Part shown: positions 12,056 to 20,751 of the stretch, in pieces
Layout: each line of letters starts with the position of its first letter
Numbering within the stretch: position 1 is the stretch's first letter
Assembly (NCBI GenBank): GCA_021787665.1
Contig: JAJYLN010000020.1
Span: 1-44,741, forward strand
DNA length: 44,741 bases
Direction: 5' to 3'
Origin: a bacterium
Lineage (GTDB): Bacteria > JAMCPX01
Made by a program: the position numbers and the translations under genes
The notes under the pieces: generated by a model
The model's input: the letters and a program-made list of their open reading frames with translations, nothing else
The model's database searches: none
What the model was told of the DNA's origin: nothing

Positions 12056-12182
12056 CGGGTGATTCATGAATATTCTGTTTATAGGAGACATCGTCGGTAA
12101 GCCGGGCAGGCATGTCGCAGCGGGCCTCGTGTCCGGGCTGAAGGACAGATACCGGATCGACTATACGATAGCGAACGGAGAA
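12056..12182. repeat. Left copy of the 127-bp direct repeat (5' end of ymdB)
   Basis: Identical, base for base, to 20625-20751 in the same orientation. It contains 10 bp before the ymdB ATG and the first 39 codons. Homology stops at 12183, where the Fic-coding sequence begins. This left copy keeps the natural upstream DNA of ymdB (11945-12055), because that DNA adjoins the host membrane-protein gene. Confidence 0.97.
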
Positions 12183-13010
12183 TCGCACCTGCGCGATCGC
12201 GATGAAGAAGAAGTCCGGGGGTATCGTAATGCACTGAAGCTCATTCATGAGCAGGCTGCAAAACTACCGATATCCGAGCATACAATTCTACGACTGTATA
12301 CATTGGCAAAGGCCAATGTATGGGACGCAGGCAGATACAAAGAGAAAGAAAGCGACATCGTCGAAAAGTATCCTGATGGGACTTCACGCGTACGTTTTAA
12401 AACGGTCCTCTCGTCCAGAACTCCGGTATCCATGGCCGAATTGATCGATCTATGGAATCAGAGTCTGCGGGAGCGATGGATTCACCCTTTGATTGCTATG
12501 GCTGTCTTCAATCTCGACTTTCTTTCCATTCATCCTTTCCGGGACGGAAGCGGCAGGGTTTCGAGGCTGCTGTTGCTGCTGCAGTGCTATCTTCTCGGCT
12601 ACGAGGTCGGCCGCTACATCAGCATTGAGCGAATCATCGAGCATGGCAAAGACCGCTATTATGAAACCCTTGAGCAATGCTCACAAGGCTGGCACGAGGG
12701 AAGACATGACCCGTGGCCTTATATAAATTATGTCTTATACACGTTCAAGACTGCTTACAAAGAATTCGAAGAGCGGGTAGGACAGCTACGATCGCCCAGA
12801 GGCGCAAAGACCGAAATGATACGTGCCGCCATAGATTCATTTGAACGTGAGTTCACCGTATTAGACATTGAGAGAGCATGCCCCGGATTCAGTAGAGACA
12901 TGATTCGATCGGTTCTTAGAGAAGTACAAAGTCAAGGGAAAGTAACATGCCTCAGACGCGGTCCTGGGGCACGTTGGAGGAAAAGAGGCAATATCCTTAA
13001 AAGAGGGTAA
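12066..13010 (+). CDS. YmdB-Fic chimeric protein (Fic domain adenylyltransferase fused to ymdB 5' end)
   Basis: Codons 1-39 are identical to ymdB. From codon 40 the protein is a Fic-family protein: the core motif HPFRDGSGRVSR (H156 to R167) sits in a helical bundle, and a winged-helix-like C-terminus follows (FTVLDIERACPGFSRDMIRSV). Fic enzymes usually transfer AMP to target hydroxyls. The conserved GNGR is GSGR here. The join is exactly at a codon boundary and in frame. The normal N-terminal Fic region, where class II proteins carry the (S/T)xxxE(G/N) inhibitory motif, is missing, so the product may be either deregulated or non-functional. The YmdB part keeps only D8 of the metal site and cannot be a phosphodiesterase. 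The Fic part is more AT-rich than the host genes. Confidence 0.8.
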   Translation: MNILFIGDIVGKPGRHVAAGLVSGLKDRYRIDYTIANGESHLRDRDEEEVRGYRNALKLIHEQAAKLPISEHTILRLYTLAKANVWDAGRYKEKESDIVEKYPDGTSRVRFKTVLSSRTPVSMAELIDLWNQSLRERWIHPLIAMAVFNLDFLSIHPFRDGSGRVSRLLLLLQCYLLGYEVGRYISIERIIEHGKDRYYETLEQCSQGWHEGRHDPWPYINYVLYTFKTAYKEFEERVGQLRSPRGAKTEMIRAAIDSFEREFTVLDIERACPGFSRDMIRSVLREVQSQGKVTCLRRGPGARWRKRGNILKRG

Positions 13011-13528: not shown

Positions 13529-16500
13529 ATGAACCGTATTTATCAAGGACGGGTGACTGCCGTGGAAGTTCCTGACGGCAAAGACGATCAAGGCAAGCCA
13601 AAGTGGAAACCGCTCGAAAACTGGCAAGAAAAACTCTGGCAGCACCATGAATTGTTTCAGGACGCTGTCAATTACTATACGCTTGCACTGGCAGCGATGG
13701 TTAGAGGCGTCAAAGGAAAAGACAAACAAGAAAAAGCTTTACAAGAATGGTCAGCAAAGGTTGAAGAAACTTGGCAGATTGCAAACCGAAAATCAGAAAC
13801 TTTTGCCGGACCGCAAAAACGTCTCGCTTCAATCCTCAATCTTCCTGCAAACAGTAGTTTTGGAAAGGCAGTTACCCGGGTTATCCGATTGAGTCGGGCA
13901 ACTGCAGAGCAACGCGGCAAAGCATTGATTCAATTACTTTCTGAAAAGGGAGACTTAAACCAGATCTGCGTTTCTCGCTTACCGTGGTTGGCTACCGCTT
14001 CCGGTAAATTTACAGGGACTAGCAAGGCCGAAGCTTCATCGCAAGAAGTGAAGCGTCAACGAGAGGTACGACGGTTTCACGAGTTAACAATGAAGGAAGC
14101 ATTAAAAGAAGCAGCAACTCTTGATCTCGCCTTATTTCTAACCCAACCACCTAAGGAGTTTGTCAAAGGTGCTCTCGCTGCTAAGATGTTGCGCGATTAT
14201 TTTACAAAGGTCTCTAAAAAATTCAATAAAATCAAATCAGTGGCAAGTGCATTTGAGAAATTCGTTGTTGGTGAGACAGACAAACTTAGAATCCCGCTAT
14301 TAGGACGGAAACCAAGTGGACTTTATCCGGCTGCTGCTCTTTTTAAATTTTTCCCATGCTCAGAAACTTTAGCTACATTTCGTAACGCAACAAAAACATT
14401 GGCAGAAGCAAAAGACAAAGAACGCATGACTGATGCGATTGCTCAAGCAAGGGTTAATGACCAACCGCAATTTGACTATTTTACAAACTTAGTTTTTGTT
14501 GATGGAGATGCTGATGATGAAAGAAATAAGCGCGCAGTCTGGTTCGAATTCGACTTGGCAGCTTTTGTTGAAGCTATCAAAGCGCCTCGACGCTACCTTG
14601 ATGATACGACAACGCGTGAAGCCGATGCTGACCGTTTTCGCCAGCAAATTGCTGCTATGGAATCTCGCGGACGAGAAGGAGGTGCTACCGATGAAGACGA
14701 AGAATCACTGCCTGGTTTTGAAGGTGATAGCCGGATTGATCTACTAAAGAAAATTGTTCGGGACAGCTTGAAATGGATTGCCGAAGCTGAGGGTGATGCG
14801 GATGAAGCTGTGCGTAGAGAATATACAATTCGAGAACGTACAGTACGAGGGTTCTGTGAAATCAAGCGTCGCTGGCGCTCTGCGGTTGATACCAAAAAAG
14901 ATACAGAAAAAGAGCTTTTGGAGATTTTGAAATTGGAACAGACAGAGCATCGCGAAGATTTTGGAAGCGCTGCATTTTACCAGCAACTTGCCAAGCCCGA
15001 ATTTCATCCAATTTGGCGTGACAATAAAAGCCAGCCGTGGCATGCAGAGGATCCACTCGCAGCATGGCTAAAGTATAAAGAGCTTCAAGCCGATCTTGCC
15101 GATAAAGAGCGGGCGATCCGATTCACACCGGCCCATCCAGAACATTCTCCGCGCTTTTTTATCTTCCCGAAAAGAAGTGAATCACAACCAAAGAATGTTA
15201 AAAACCGGCCAAACAAGCCAGGCTTACTGTCGAGGCATGACCTCGGACAATTAAGTTTTACCGGCGGTATTATTCTTCCAACAAATCGTGACCTTGTTCC
15301 GTCGGTTGTGCGAATTCACTATGGCGCGCCGCGCATCTGCCGTGACCAACTTCGAACTATTGGCGATAACAATCTTTATGAGGCCCCTTGGCTACAGCCC
15401 ATGATGGTGGCGCTCGACTTGGACAAAGCTCCTGACAAAATAAACTTTGCCAATTGTAGAATTATCCTGCAGCCTACAAATAAAACAGACATTCAGTTGA
15501 CGTTCCCAGTTGAAGTGAACACTGACAAGATAAGAGCTACCGTTGCTCGCGACAATACTTGGCAAAATCAATTTAATCTCTTTCCTGATGGTAAGGAATT
15601 CTGCAATGCTTCGCTTCGCTGGCCGCATGAAAAGCAGCCGAAAAAGCCACCTGTTCCGTGGTTCGAGCAAGTCAATTTATTCAGTTGTGTTGCTACAGAC
15701 TTAGGCCAACGCAATGCAGGGGCTTTTGCAAGATTGTTGGCAAGCAGCGGCGATGATTTTGGTGAAAGACCATCACGTTTTATCGGTACAACTGGTAACA
15801 AAAGATGGCAGGCTGCATTAGTACGCTCTGGAATGTTCTGCTTGCCTGGCGAGGATGCGCACGTTTGGCGTGCGAAAAGTAGCATCGATAATCAGAATAC
15901 AGGTGATTCTGGCAAGCCATTTGATTTTCGTGAGGAGTTATGGGGCGAACGTGGACGGCCGGCACGCGATTGGGAAGCTGACGAGACAGTAAAGCTGATG
16001 GAAGAACTCGAAGTTCCACCCGACGAGAAAGAGCTTTCATTGTTGTCAGACAACTGGCGAAGTGCTCTAAGCTTTCCAGAACAGAATGACAAACTACTGA
16101 TTGCAATGAGACGTTATCAATCAAGAATTTCCCGTTTACATCGCTGGTGTTGGTTTCTCAAAGGTGACGATAAGCAGCAGAGGACTGCATGGAAAGAAAT
16201 TGTAGAATGTGAGGACACGAGGTTAATTTCAGCCCATCATCGTGAGCAAGCAAGCAAAAGTGATCCGTGTCTGTTGATACAATTGGAAACCGCTTTGAAA
16301 AAACGATTAGAAATTGCGCCTGATTTGCTTGCTCGTATCGCAAATCGGATTCTGGCATTACGTGGTCGGTCATGGAAATGGGAAAAAAATCCAGTTGCCA
16401 CAAATAGAAATATTTTGCATCTTCTGACACAAAATGGGCAAAGTTTGGATACTATGGAAAAACGGACTTGGCTGCGTGGTCAGCGCGGGTTGTCTTTTCA

Positions 16501-17758
16501 GCGCATTGAGCAGATTGAAGAATTGAGGAAACGTTGCCAATCCTTGAACCAAACCCAGCGCCGCGAAATCGGCAGTAAGCCACCTATTCGCCGTGATGAA
16601 TCTGTTCCCGATCCTTGTCCTGATTTTCTGGAAAAGCTCGATAACCTGAAGGAACAACGCATTAATCAAACTGCACATATGATTTTAGCTGAATCCCTCG
16701 GTTTGCGGCTTGCTTCGCCACCTGCCGATAAAAAAGAATTACACCAAGAACGAGATCAGCATGGCGTTTACGAAAAGATTCTCGACAAGTCTGGCAAATG
16801 GATTGGTCCGGCAGATTTTATCGTGATTGAAGATCTATCGCGTTATCGTGCAAGTCAGGGTCGTGCGCCTCGCGAAAACTCACGGCTGATGAAATGGTGT
16901 CATCGCGCTGTCAAAGATAAGCTTAAACAGCTTTGTGAAGTGTTTGGAGTGCCGGTATTGGAAACACCCGCCGCCTATTCCTCCCGCTTTTGCGCGCGGA
17001 GCGGAGTGGCCGGCTTCCGTGCCGTAGAGATTACTCCGGGATTCACCAAGCACGGCTATTGGGCATGGCTCGCCGGCAAGAAAAACGACGAAGGCGAGCC
17101 GACCGCCGACGCGAAAGAGCTGTTAAACCTCGATGATCAACTTTGCAACGCGCAGATTGACTTGGAGGCGAACTGGGAAGCGAAGCATCCCGGCGAACCG
17201 TGTCCGAAGCGCACGGCTTTGGTGCCGCAGGCTGGCGGACCAATCTTTATTCCAGTTGTTGAAACGAAAGCGAACGGAGAATTAAATTCCGCTGTTGTGC
17301 ATGCAGACATCAACGCTGCTATTAACTTAGGATTGCGTGCTATTTCAGACCCACGTCTATGGGAAATCCATCCTCGTTTGCGCACCGAACGCATAAGTGG
17401 AGAAATGAAAAAACATAGTGATAACAAGAAATCCAAAGAATCCACAGACACTATCAAGGCAACACCTGCTCTGAAAGCACGTGAAAGACGCAAATATGGT
17501 GAGTTGGGGCCGAATTTAGAACTCGATAATCCACCCAAAGGTAGCGCTGTAGAGGACACACGTAATCCAAATTATTTCTTCGATGTAGCTGGTATTGCAT
17601 CATGGGATAGAGCTAAAATTAAAGATTCAATAACAGGTAAGTCCATATCCTTGTCGAGCGGAAAGGCGCTTTGGAGTGCAGTAAAAGAACGACAACGGAA
17701 ACGATGCAAAGAAATTAATGATGCGCATTTCACTAAATGGAAAAAAAGATTGAGCTAA
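13529..17758 (+). CDS. cas12b: CRISPR-associated endonuclease Cas12b (C2c1), type V-B effector
   Basis: The RNA-guided DNA nuclease of a subtype V-B system. At 1409 residues it belongs to the long Cas12b forms. The N-terminus (IYQGRVTAVEVPDG, then HHELFQDAVNYY) is characteristic of the family's first domain. RuvC-I is ATDLGQRNAGAF with D724; a bridge-helix-like stretch NDKLLIAMRRYQSRISRLHR follows near residue 850; RuvC-II is FIVIEDLSRYR with E1101, followed by ENSRLMKWCHR and AYSSRFCARSG; RuvC-III is HADINAAINLG with D1260. All three acidic residues are present, so it is likely active. AAAAGGAGG is 8 nt before the ATG. It is clearly more AT-rich than the host genes. cas4-cas1 follows after 13 bp. 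Like other Cas12b proteins it is expected to need a tracrRNA. Confidence 0.95.
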   Translation: MNRIYQGRVTAVEVPDGKDDQGKPKWKPLENWQEKLWQHHELFQDAVNYYTLALAAMVRGVKGKDKQEKALQEWSAKVEETWQIANRKSETFAGPQKRLASILNLPANSSFGKAVTRVIRLSRATAEQRGKALIQLLSEKGDLNQICVSRLPWLATASGKFTGTSKAEASSQEVKRQREVRRFHELTMKEALKEAATLDLALFLTQPPKEFVKGALAAKMLRDYFTKVSKKFNKIKSVASAFEKFVVGETDKLRIPLLGRKPSGLYPAAALFKFFPCSETLATFRNATKTLAEAKDKERMTDAIAQARVNDQPQFDYFTNLVFVDGDADDERNKRAVWFEFDLAAFVEAIKAPRRYLDDTTTREADADRFRQQIAAMESRGREGGATDEDEESLPGFEGDSRIDLLKKIVRDSLKWIAEAEGDADEAVRREYTIRERTVRGFCEIKRRWRSAVDTKKDTEKELLEILKLEQTEHREDFGSAAFYQQLAKPEFHPIWRDNKSQPWHAEDPLAAWLKYKELQADLADKERAIRFTPAHPEHSPRFFIFPKRSESQPKNVKNRPNKPGLLSRHDLGQLSFTGGIILPTNRDLVPSVVRIHYGAPRICRDQLRTIGDNNLYEAPWLQPMMVALDLDKAPDKINFANCRIILQPTNKTDIQLTFPVEVNTDKIRATVARDNTWQNQFNLFPDGKEFCNASLRWPHEKQPKKPPVPWFEQVNLFSCVATDLGQRNAGAFARLLASSGDDFGERPSRFIGTTGNKRWQAALVRSGMFCLPGEDAHVWRAKSSIDNQNTGDSGKPFDFREELWGERGRPARDWEADETVKLMEELEVPPDEKELSLLSDNWRSALSFPEQNDKLLIAMRRYQSRISRLHRWCWFLKGDDKQQRTAWKEIVECEDTRLISAHHREQASKSDPCLLIQLETALKKRLEIAPDLLARIANRILALRGRSWKWEKNPVATNRNILHLLTQNGQSLDTMEKRTWLRGQRGLSFQRIEQIEELRKRCQSLNQTQRREIGSKPPIRRDESVPDPCPDFLEKLDNLKEQRINQTAHMILAESLGLRLASPPADKKELHQERDQHGVYEKILDKSGKWIGPADFIVIEDLSRYRASQGRAPRENSRLMKWCHRAVKDKLKQLCEVFGVPVLETPAAYSSRFCARSGVAGFRAVEITPGFTKHGYWAWLAGKKNDEGEPTADAKELLNLDDQLCNAQIDLEANWEAKHPGEPCPKRTALVPQAGGPIFIPVVETKANGELNSAVVHADINAAINLGLRAISDPRLWEIHPRLRTERISGEMKKHSDNKKSKESTDTIKATPALKARERRKYGELGPNLELDNPPKGSAVEDTRNPNYFFDVAGIASWDRAKIKDSITGKSISLSSGKALWSAVKERQRKRCKEINDAHFTKWKKRLS

Positions 17759-17771
17759 TATCGGATTAAAT

Positions 17772-19574
17772 ATGGGTGACGCAGGATTACGTACCGACGG
17801 TTTACTCGAAGCCCAGCCGAGAATGGGCGTACGCAATCTGCACAATTTCATCTACTGTCCCCGTCTATTTTACTTCCGGTGGGTTGAGAATATTTTTCAG
17901 GAGAATGCGGATACCGTCACGGGCAGCGATGTTCACCGTAACGTAGATACGCCTTCAAAGCTCAACGACCCCAAGGAACTTGGCTTGCCGGAAGGCTCGA
18001 AGCTGCGTAGTCTTAGGCTTGAAAGCGAGTCGCTCGGCCTCATAGGTGTAGTGGATATCGTTGAAGGCGGACCTGACGGTGCGGAAGTCATTGATTACAA
18101 GAAAGGCTCTGCGCGCCGTGATTCCGAAGGTGAGCGCGTGGCGAAAGAGCCGGACGCCATGCAGGTTGCCGCACACGCAATGCTGTTGCGAGAGCATGGT
18201 GTCGCCGTGGCTCATAGTGCGATTTACTATGCTGCGGACAAGCGCCGCGTACCTGTCGAGCTGACTGATGAGTTGTTGTCAAAGACCCGACAGGCCATCA
18301 CCGATGCAAAGGCATTGGCTGCTTCAGGCCATTGTCCGCCTCCGCTAAAGAACGATCCGCGTTGCTTATATTGCTCCGCATACCCGATTTGTTTACCGAA
18401 TGAATCGCTTTGGTGGGCAAGAAGGCATAAAGTTATCGGGCAGGACCCTCAGTTGAGCTTCGGCTTCACAGGATCATCCGACGAATCTATTCGGGACCAG
18501 ATTCTTGAGGCCCTGGACTTTGCCGCCGAATCAACGGATAAAGAGCCCACCCTGCAACCGCCAAGACCGGAACATAATGACGGTGAAGTGCTTGTCGTAC
18601 AGACACCGGGTACGCAAATCGGACAGCACGGTGACCAGTTGGTTGTCAGCTTAAAAGGCACGGAAATGCGAAAGATACCGGGGCAGCAGGTGAGGGCAAT
18701 CTATTGCTATGGCGCTATACAGATCACGGCTCAGGCAGTCGGGACGTGTTTGGAGCTCGGAATAGACGTTGCTTACTTCAGTCCGGCAGGGAGGTTTCTC
18801 GGTATGCTGGGCGGCTTGCCTGCAAGCGGCGTGGACGCGCGGCGCGGGCAATACCGGCTTTTTGAGTTGCCGGGTGTACGATTGCAGCTTGCGCGGGAGG
18901 TAACTCGTGCCAAGATTCATAACCAGCGTGTCATGCTTATGCGTAACGGTGATGTGCCGGATAATGTCGTACACGTGCTTGCAAGCTTTCGCGATGCAAC
19001 GGAAGCCGCGCGGGACATGACCGAGCTGCTCGGCATCGAAGGCAGTGCTGCGGCAATTTACTTCGAGCAGTTCGAATCCATGCTCAAGCAGCGCGAAGAC
19101 TGGAAGTTCGACTGGCACGGGCGCAACCGCCGTCCGCCCCGCGATCCTGTGAATGCATTATTGTCACTGGGCTACTCTATGCTTGCAAAGGAGATTACCG
19201 GAGTTTGCTATACGGTCGGACTTGACCCATTCCTCGGGTTCATGCACCAACCGCGCTATGGGCGCCCGGCACTCGCATTGGATTTGATGGAAGAATTCCG
19301 TCCCTTGATTGCGGATAGTGTCACTATAAGTCTTATCAACCGCGGAGAGCTTGGTCCGGAGGATTTCATGCGCAATGCCAATGGAACATTTCTAACGGAT
19401 CGAGGCCGCAAGCCGTTTTGGGAAGCGTGGTTCCGGAGGCTTGATACCGAGGTCAGCCATCCTGAATTCGGCTATAAGATGGCATACCGCCGGATGCTTG
19501 AAGTACAAGCTCGCCAATTATGGCGGTTCGTCCGCGGTGAAGCCTTGGCCTATCACGGGTTTGTTACGAGATGA
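17772..19574 (+). CDS. cas4-cas1: Cas4-Cas1 fusion protein
   Basis: A 600-residue fusion of two adaptation proteins, an arrangement known from type V-B and I-U loci. The Cas4 half (about 1-220) is a RecB-like exonuclease: C29 in YCPRLFYF, and C198, C201 and C207 in CLYCSAYPIC could ligate the iron-sulfur cluster, with nuclease motifs GVVDIVEG and EVIDYKKG. The Cas1 half (about 255-600) is the spacer integrase, with E474 in LAKEITG, H492 in FMHQPRYGR and D504 in LDLMEEFRP as the expected catalytic residues. No Shine-Dalgarno supports the ATG; a later ATG at 17823 also fits. The last 4 bp overlap cas2. Cas4 trims and orients prespacers and so should set the PAM of new spacers. Confidence 0.95.
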   Translation: MGDAGLRTDGLLEAQPRMGVRNLHNFIYCPRLFYFRWVENIFQENADTVTGSDVHRNVDTPSKLNDPKELGLPEGSKLRSLRLESESLGLIGVVDIVEGGPDGAEVIDYKKGSARRDSEGERVAKEPDAMQVAAHAMLLREHGVAVAHSAIYYAADKRRVPVELTDELLSKTRQAITDAKALAASGHCPPPLKNDPRCLYCSAYPICLPNESLWWARRHKVIGQDPQLSFGFTGSSDESIRDQILEALDFAAESTDKEPTLQPPRPEHNDGEVLVVQTPGTQIGQHGDQLVVSLKGTEMRKIPGQQVRAIYCYGAIQITAQAVGTCLELGIDVAYFSPAGRFLGMLGGLPASGVDARRGQYRLFELPGVRLQLAREVTRAKIHNQRVMLMRNGDVPDNVVHVLASFRDATEAARDMTELLGIEGSAAAIYFEQFESMLKQREDWKFDWHGRNRRPPRDPVNALLSLGYSMLAKEITGVCYTVGLDPFLGFMHQPRYGRPALALDLMEEFRPLIADSVTISLINRGELGPEDFMRNANGTFLTDRGRKPFWEAWFRRLDTEVSHPEFGYKMAYRRMLEVQARQLWRFVRGEALAYHGFVTR

Positions 19575-19861
19575 GCAGAATCCGTTACCTTGTCAGCTAT
19601 GATATCTGCGACCCCAAAAGGCTGCGCAATGTAGCACGTACTCTGGAAGGATTTGGCATGCGGCTGCAATATTCCGTATTTGAATGTTCACTGGGCGAGA
19701 CACGTCTTGCAAAGCTGAAAGCAGAGCTTCATCCGTTGTTGAATCACGATGAGGATCAGGTATTGTTCGTGTCGCTTGGCCCAAGCACGGGTGATGCCAC
19801 ATTGGTCATTGAAGCGATGGGCTTGCCTTATGAAGTACGATCGCTGGTTACGATAGTTTAG
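19571..19861 (+). CDS. cas2: CRISPR-associated protein Cas2
   Basis: The 96-residue structural partner of Cas1 in spacer integration. It begins with the ferredoxin-like strand YLVSYDICDPKRL carrying the conserved aspartate (D11), followed by VARTLEGFGMRLQYSVFEC, a hallmark of Cas2. The start overlaps the cas4-cas1 stop (ATGA), so translation is coupled. The tracrRNA promoter candidate begins 10 bp after its stop codon. Length and motifs are normal for the family. Confidence 0.96.
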   Translation: MSRIRYLVSYDICDPKRLRNVARTLEGFGMRLQYSVFECSLGETRLAKLKAELHPLLNHDEDQVLFVSLGPSTGDATLVIEAMGLPYEVRSLVTIV

Positions 19862-19870
19862 TCCTTGAGC

Positions 19871-19899
19871 TTGACATTTGAATCCTGATCTTTTAAGTT
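19871..19899 (+). promoter_or_regulatory. Promoter candidate for the tracrRNA
   Basis: A perfect TTGACA (19871-19876) is followed by 17 bp and TAAGTT (19894-19899), a weaker -10 box with 3 of 6 matches. Initiation would be near 19906, immediately before the anti-repeat region. Its position between cas2 and the array, and the anti-repeat just downstream, support a dedicated small-RNA promoter. Confidence 0.5.
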
Positions 19900-19905
19900 A
19901 ATAAG

Positions 19906-19989
19906 CGGCTAAGGCCACCGACCACCTTTCTTCCGCCATTGGAAAGGTACATTCTTTGAAATCGCGAATAACTGTATTTTGAATGCGGC
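19906..19989 (+). ncRNA. tracrRNA candidate with a split anti-repeat
   Basis: The complement of the repeat occurs here in the correct order in three blocks. CCGCC is at 19933-19937. The central block 19948-19974 has 22 Watson-Crick pairs, two G-U pairs, two mismatches and one bulged A against the repeat, and includes AATCGCGA and AACTG. TGCGGC is at 19984-19989. A hairpin CCTTTC/GAAAGG (19925-19930, 19942-19947) loops CCGCC out, resembling the way known Cas12b tracrRNAs fold around the repeat. Transcription in the same direction as the array is needed and fits. Ends are estimates; a further stem (19998-20006 with 20033-20041) lies downstream and the RNA may extend into it. Confidence 0.75.
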
Positions 19990-20150
19990 AAAAGCAGTGC
20001 GAGTGCGGCAGTGCTGACACAGACCGAAAGGCGTGCTCGCAAGTTGGGATTTATGCGATGAAGCAGGGTAATGTTGGGTTATTCGAATATGTTTGAGATC
20101 ACTGGTCGGCTTTAACCTTATTGCACTCGCAAATCAAGGGGAAAAATCTT

Positions 20151-20159
20151 TGGTATACA
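20151..20159 (+). promoter_or_regulatory. Extended -10 promoter for the CRISPR array
   Basis: TGGTATACA contains the extended -10 pattern TGn followed by TATACA (5 of 6 matches to TATAAT). Transcription would start near 20166, only about 12 nt before the first repeat. No good -35 box is seen, as usual for this promoter class. The AT-richer stretch 20045-20177 is therefore the probable leader. Confidence 0.45.
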
Positions 20160-20177
20160 AGAGGTTAAAGCACGGCG

Positions 20178-20500
20178 GCCGCAGTTGTCGCGATTCCTAA
20201 GAGTGTAAGGCGGCCGATTAGCGAGTTCCTTCGGGAAGCGGTATCTTTGCCGCAGTTGTCGCGATTCCTAAGAGTGTAAGGCGGCGATAAACCGCCCTCA
20301 TGGTGTCCCTTACCAGATGCCGCCGCAGTTGTCGCGATTCCTAAGAGTGTAAGGCGGCTCCTTCTCGTAACGTTTAAATCGTTCTTTAAACCGCCGCAGT
20401 TGTCGCGATTCCTAAGAGTGTAAGGCGGACAAATAGCCATAGTATTCTACAGTTACAACAGAGGGCCGCAGTTGTCGCGATTCCTAAGAGTGTAAGGCGG
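20178..20500 (+). CRISPR. CRISPR array: five identical 36-bp repeats, four spacers (type V-B)
   Basis: Repeats lie at 20178-20213, 20249-20284, 20322-20357, 20393-20428 and 20465-20500 and are identical. They begin GCCGCAGTTG, contain TCGCGATTCC and end GTGTAAGGCGG; CCGC and GCGG at the ends can pair. Spacers are 35, 37, 35 and 36 bp (20214-20248, 20285-20321, 20358-20392, 20429-20464) and unrelated to each other. The orientation is taken from the co-directional tracrRNA candidate and the leader. The array is short, and no degenerate terminal repeat is present. I see no spacer match elsewhere in the window. Confidence 0.98.
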
Positions 20501-20624: not shown

Positions 20625-20751
20625 CGGGTGATTCATGAATATTCTGTTTATAGGAGACATCGTCGGTAAGCCGGGCAGGCATGTCGCAGCGGGCCTCGTG
20701 TCCGGGCTGAAGGACAGATACCGGATCGACTATACGATAGCGAACGGAGAA
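20625..20751. repeat. Right copy of the 127-bp direct repeat (5' end of intact ymdB)
   Basis: Identical to 12056-12182. Divergence begins at 20624 on the left and 20752 on the right. It forms the first 39 codons of the complete ymdB, so it is the copy that restored the gene. Only 10 bp before the ATG are duplicated, so the native promoter region stayed with the left copy. Confidence 0.97.

Follow-up and report, generated by a model that had tools for sequence, protein, structure and literature searches.

The anti-repeat element between cas2 and the CRISPR array of the window (the whole 44,741-nt stretch of DNA that was analysed) is very probably, at roughly 93%, the tracrRNA gene of a type V-B (Cas12b) CRISPR locus, with a pseudoknot architecture predicted from its sequence. 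The assignment is firm because relatives carry a matching hairpin, stem 2 covaries, the short anti-repeat changes together with the repeat end, and anti-repeats score highest with their cognate repeats. An earlier note on this DNA had read the tracrRNA as unusual; it is genuine and of ordinary Cas12b architecture, since the published BhCas12b duplex and ten folded loci show the same layout. The paired motif CTCGCAA in the leader that follows matters more than the tracrRNA and is the part that deserves a second look.

The V-B locus lies on the + strand of the window and consists of cas12b, a cas4-cas1 fusion, cas2 and a CRISPR array:

13529..17758, + strand: cas12b (1409 aa); equivalog NF033949, 758.5 bits against a cut-off of 150; PADLOC Cas12b; RuvC motifs
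17772..19574, + strand: cas4-cas1 fusion (600 aa); NF049935 cas4g_cas1g, 607 bits against a cut-off of 560; Pfam Cas1 and Cas4
19571..19861, + strand: cas2 (96 aa); Pfam PF09827, 7.5e-20
20178..20500, + strand: CRISPR array; five identical 36-nt repeats, 35-37-nt spacers

The equivalog match identifies the effector as the Cas12b of a type V-B system, and its three RuvC motifs lie at residues 721, 1098 and 1257. Other Cas12 types were considered and dropped, the match to Cas12i being weak (1.5e-05). The adaptation genes are likewise those of type V-B, with the Cas4-Cas1 fusion and Cas2 adjoining the effector. All five copies of the repeat read GCCGCAGTTGTCGCGATTCCTAAGAGTGTAAGGCGG, and the spacer lengths agree with the mode of 35 nt in the Alicyclobacillus V-B system (PMC9419969). 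The window Cas12b is large, and the proteins closest to it (67%, 59% and 52% identity) belong to other phyla.

The predicted tracrRNA gene and its parts are as follows:

19871..19876, + strand: TTGACA, likely -35 box of the tracrRNA promoter; position conserved among loci
19906..19990, + strand: tracrRNA, predicted extent; start 3' of the promoter, end where repeat complementarity stops
19924..19948, + strand: stem 2 hairpin with an 11-nt loop; arms ACCTTTC (19924-19930) and GAAAGGT (19942-19948)
19933..19937, + strand: short anti-repeat CCGCC in the stem 2 loop; exact complement of the repeat end GGCGG
19948..19974, + strand: long anti-repeat; pairs with repeat positions 7-33 counted from the 3' end
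19984..19989, + strand: TGCGGC, third block; exact complement of the first six bases of the repeat, across a bulge; not significant

The coordinates and complementarity of these blocks are as the earlier note gave them, and its central proposal, a tracrRNA with a split anti-repeat in a Cas12b locus, is borne out both by the identity of the effector and by the strength of the duplex. The best duplex with the repeat in 19862-20177 scores 45, a value reached by none of 1000 dinucleotide shuffles (mean 26.5, SD 3.8, maximum 42). As in a tracrRNA, a long anti-repeat complementary to the repeat stands beside the array, and a short anti-repeat matches the repeat end next to the guide exactly. The hairpin said to separate the first two blocks in fact encloses the first: CCGCC sits inside its loop, and its pairing with the repeat end therefore forms a pseudoknot. 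The element is present in a single copy in its genome, and an Rfam scan returned two tRNAs and nothing else.

We compared the element with Cas12b loci from genomes of a single other phylum (the named records are Verrucomicrobia and Lentisphaerae), with an Alicyclobacillus dauci plasmid as the named control locus; no relatives of Cas12b turned up in viral contigs or phage records. A matching hairpin stands at the same site upstream of the array in all 24 relatives whose stretch includes repeats, A. dauci among them. The hairpin loop carries the complement of the repeat 3' end in 23 of the 24; L002, whose repeat is truncated where the contig stops, was left out of this count. In L078 and L080, the hairpin was located by direct search some 200 bp upstream of the array. 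The hairpin shows some variation, with a weaker stem in L081 and a shorter loop in L072.

Covariance folding against relatives, which had been proposed as a check, agrees with the assignment. All six aligned pairs of stem 2 show compensatory changes on both sides, with 100% of cells paired across 14 distinct sequences, and the covariation score for the whole structure is 0.594 versus 0.232 in shuffles. The short anti-repeat and the repeat end change together from locus to locus, forming the pairs CCGCC/GGCGG, CCGTC/GACGG, GTGCC/GGCAC and GTGTC/GACAC. Anti-repeat:repeat scores average 45.9 for cognate versus 21.9 for non-cognate combinations, and each repeat scores best with its own locus. The sole exception among the anti-repeats is that of L004, which scores slightly higher with the window repeat than with its own (44 versus 42).

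Additional tracrRNA copies or tracrRNA-like elements were seen at two loci, both numbered in the orientation that puts cas12b on the + strand. L031 carries three tandem tracrRNA copies, 95 nt apart, at 14484-14727; every copy has stem 2 and both the short and the long anti-repeat, and the third differs at its 3' end. In L036, a second, shorter tracrRNA-like hairpin (TCCTCT-CCCCGCCATTG-AGAGGA) lies directly 3' of the anti-repeat at 2907-2935 and is followed by a partial anti-repeat.

The TTGACA promoter of the earlier note is present and plausible by position: of the 23 loci scanned, 12 have TTGAC(A/G/T) with its first base 53-61 nt before stem 2. The window has a weak -10 box. A conserved promoter position, which is short of proof, would plausibly put the RNA start near stem 1. 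We identified no intrinsic terminator 3' of the anti-repeat. By analogy with known Cas12b systems, transcription from the promoter with TTGACA at 19871 would start near 19906, and stem 2 (19924-19948) would present CCGCC in its 11-nt loop, with the long anti-repeat directly after it. The long anti-repeat would then pair with the repeat of the pre-crRNA, and the loop CCGCC with the last five repeat bases beside the guide, closing a pseudoknot to be bound by Cas12b. The long duplex would be trimmed by a host RNase, probably RNase III.

This layout is close to that of characterized Cas12b guides. The guide RNA of BhCas12b has a long repeat:anti-repeat stem of about 30 bp with a bulge, and a 5-bp short stem in a pseudoknot (PMC11246509), and small-RNA sequencing at other Cas12b loci placed the tracrRNA between cas12b and the array (PMC6342934). 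The window element resembles the Cas12b tracrRNAs of B. hisashii, B. thermoamylovorans and Alicyclobacillus in its array-adjacent site, its hairpin enclosing a 5-nt short anti-repeat, its bulged long anti-repeat of about 30 bp, and its pseudoknot next to the guide; its sequence is fully diverged from the known Bacillus and Alicyclobacillus ones. In the ten loci that we folded, the predicted duplexes form 22-29 of 31 long-stem pairs and, in every case, all five short-stem pairs; the window, with 28+5 predicted pairs, falls just under A. dauci (29+5). Near-full pairing is thus normal in the family, and the claim of an unusually complete duplex does not hold. The distinct processing that had been read from it is unsupported, the architecture being the known Cas12b one. 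Unlike A. dauci, L027, L040 and L070, which have a longer stem 2 loop with an inner hairpin, the window has an 11-nt loop without one, as do most relatives; the inner hairpin varies within the family and was not treated as defining for a Cas12b tracrRNA. The window tracrRNA adds a compact Cas12b scaffold, together with about 24 comparable loci, which helps guide design.

The anti-repeat had been described as three blocks, of which the first two stand and the third does not. With TGCGGC added, the predicted energy of the duplex falls from -27.9 to -34.3 kcal/mol, and the close relatives L002 and L004 have YGCGGC at the matching place. However, 47 of 500 shuffled tails did equally well or better, so nothing should rest on the third block, which also lacks co-variation with the repeat. 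Block 3 would need a CA of the repeat that block 2 also pairs with; in most relatives, pairing of the repeat 5' end involves no comparable loop. Given also how usual near-complete pairing is in the family, it is highly improbable that the window forms a branched duplex of three blocks that is unusually complete and processed by a pathway of its own, and we retain the ordinary Cas12b architecture with one short and one long anti-repeat.

The DNA 3' of the anti-repeat is the CRISPR leader. This includes the 3' part of 19871-20041, the interval listed in the earlier note; that part is leader rather than tracrRNA and reaches into the first of two copies of a paired motif:

20036..20042, + strand: CTCGCAA, upstream copy of the paired leader motif; 142 bp before repeat 1
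20126..20132, + strand: CTCGCAA, proximal copy of the paired leader motif; 52 bp before repeat 1

The 22 loci have 36 occurrences of CTCGC 3' of the anti-repeat, versus 4.2 expected. Across V-B loci, the proximal copy is 50-52 bp away from repeat 1 and the upstream one, in most cases, 130-145 bp; in the A. dauci leader, the place of the proximal motif is taken by CACTCGTTC. We searched for the core [AC]TCG in a 10-bp interval at fixed distance before repeat 1, also in type I-G loci from the same class, which have the same kind of Cas4/1 fusion, unrelated repeats and, in the loci examined, no Cas12b. Controls were 27 flanks of arrays beside unfused cas1 in related genomes, with both flanks of an array counted where available, since either could be the leader side. 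The core is present at the proximal distance in 20 of 20 V-B leaders and 15 of 15 type I-G leaders, versus none of the 27 control flanks; these counts ignore shared ancestry, over a span in which repeats and anti-repeats have almost wholly diverged. The motif has what is expected of an adaptation leader element: sequence conservation, a set spacing from repeat 1 and association with the Cas4/1-Cas2 module.

The same motif could instead be part of an RNA element, such as a tracrRNA 3' hairpin, a terminator or a switch, rather than a DNA site. In the window, TGCGAG at 19998-20003 can pair with CTCGCA at 20036-20041, and TGCGAGTGC can pair with GCACTCGCA at 20123-20131, as such an element would require. 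However, several loci lack the partner GCGAG but keep CTCGC, which argues that the conserved thing is a DNA motif, and the motif recurs at the same distance before type I-G arrays, with their unrelated repeats and no Cas12b. An RNA element is therefore unlikely. The hairpin at 19998-20041 was also rejected as a terminator: no T run follows it, its 5' arm is absent in several relatives, and its 3' arm is the leader motif itself, found before I-G arrays as well.

Taken as a DNA site, the motif is probably a docking or positioning site for the Cas4/1-Cas2 adaptation complex, a putative role suggested by its association and spacing. Known leader motifs that guide spacer integration include the IHF site in types I-E and I-F, the leader-anchoring sequence in II-A, and the distal and proximal motifs in I-A (PMC9456107). 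Like these, CTCGCAA is short conserved DNA at set distances before repeat 1; unlike them, it has this particular sequence, occurs as two copies about 80-92 bp apart, and is common to V-B and I-G loci with Cas4/1 fusions. Cas4/1 and Cas2 alone were reported to be sufficient for acquisition in E. coli (PMC9419969). The chances are about even that V-B and I-G loci have in common an undescribed leader code of two CTCGCAA copies (at -52 and at about -130 to -145) to which the Cas4/1-Cas2 integrase or a DNA-bending protein of the host docks, and which was preserved through exchanges of effectors, repeats and tracrRNAs. We found no description of the motif in the literature searched, outside which the main leader-motif survey lies, and its novelty is unproven. 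Leader targeting by Cas4-containing adaptation complexes is unsettled outside a few types, and the motif offers a short, positioned and mutable candidate site.

The V-B locus lies in an island with an exact 127-bp direct repeat on either side (12056-12182 and 20625-20751), which corresponds to the 5' end of ymdB. Cas12b was absent from all eight other genomes examined of the same phylum, and GC content is 46% in cas12b versus about 55% in the flanks. None of the genes upstream of ymdB in relatives matches the left flank of the window; the gene found before ymdB in those genomes is located within a different contig in the present assembly. The absence of Cas12b from these genomes, the GC contrast and the context on the ymdB side fit horizontal gain of the island. 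The 127-bp repeat could stem either from an insertion that duplicated the gene start or from an assembly join; 127 is a common assembler word length, which makes a join possible, so the host assignment of the locus needs care. The repeat around the island, the low GC content of cas12b and an array of only five repeats could also be expected of a decayed locus whose tracrRNA is a relic. This is very unlikely, since all three cas reading frames are open, Cas12b has its RuvC motifs, the five repeats do not differ from one another and the pairing is intact.

The ORF at 12066-13010 starts with 40 codons of the ymdB start and continues as a Fic-domain protein. It is a fusion created by the 127-bp repeat, and the Fic gene may belong to the island.
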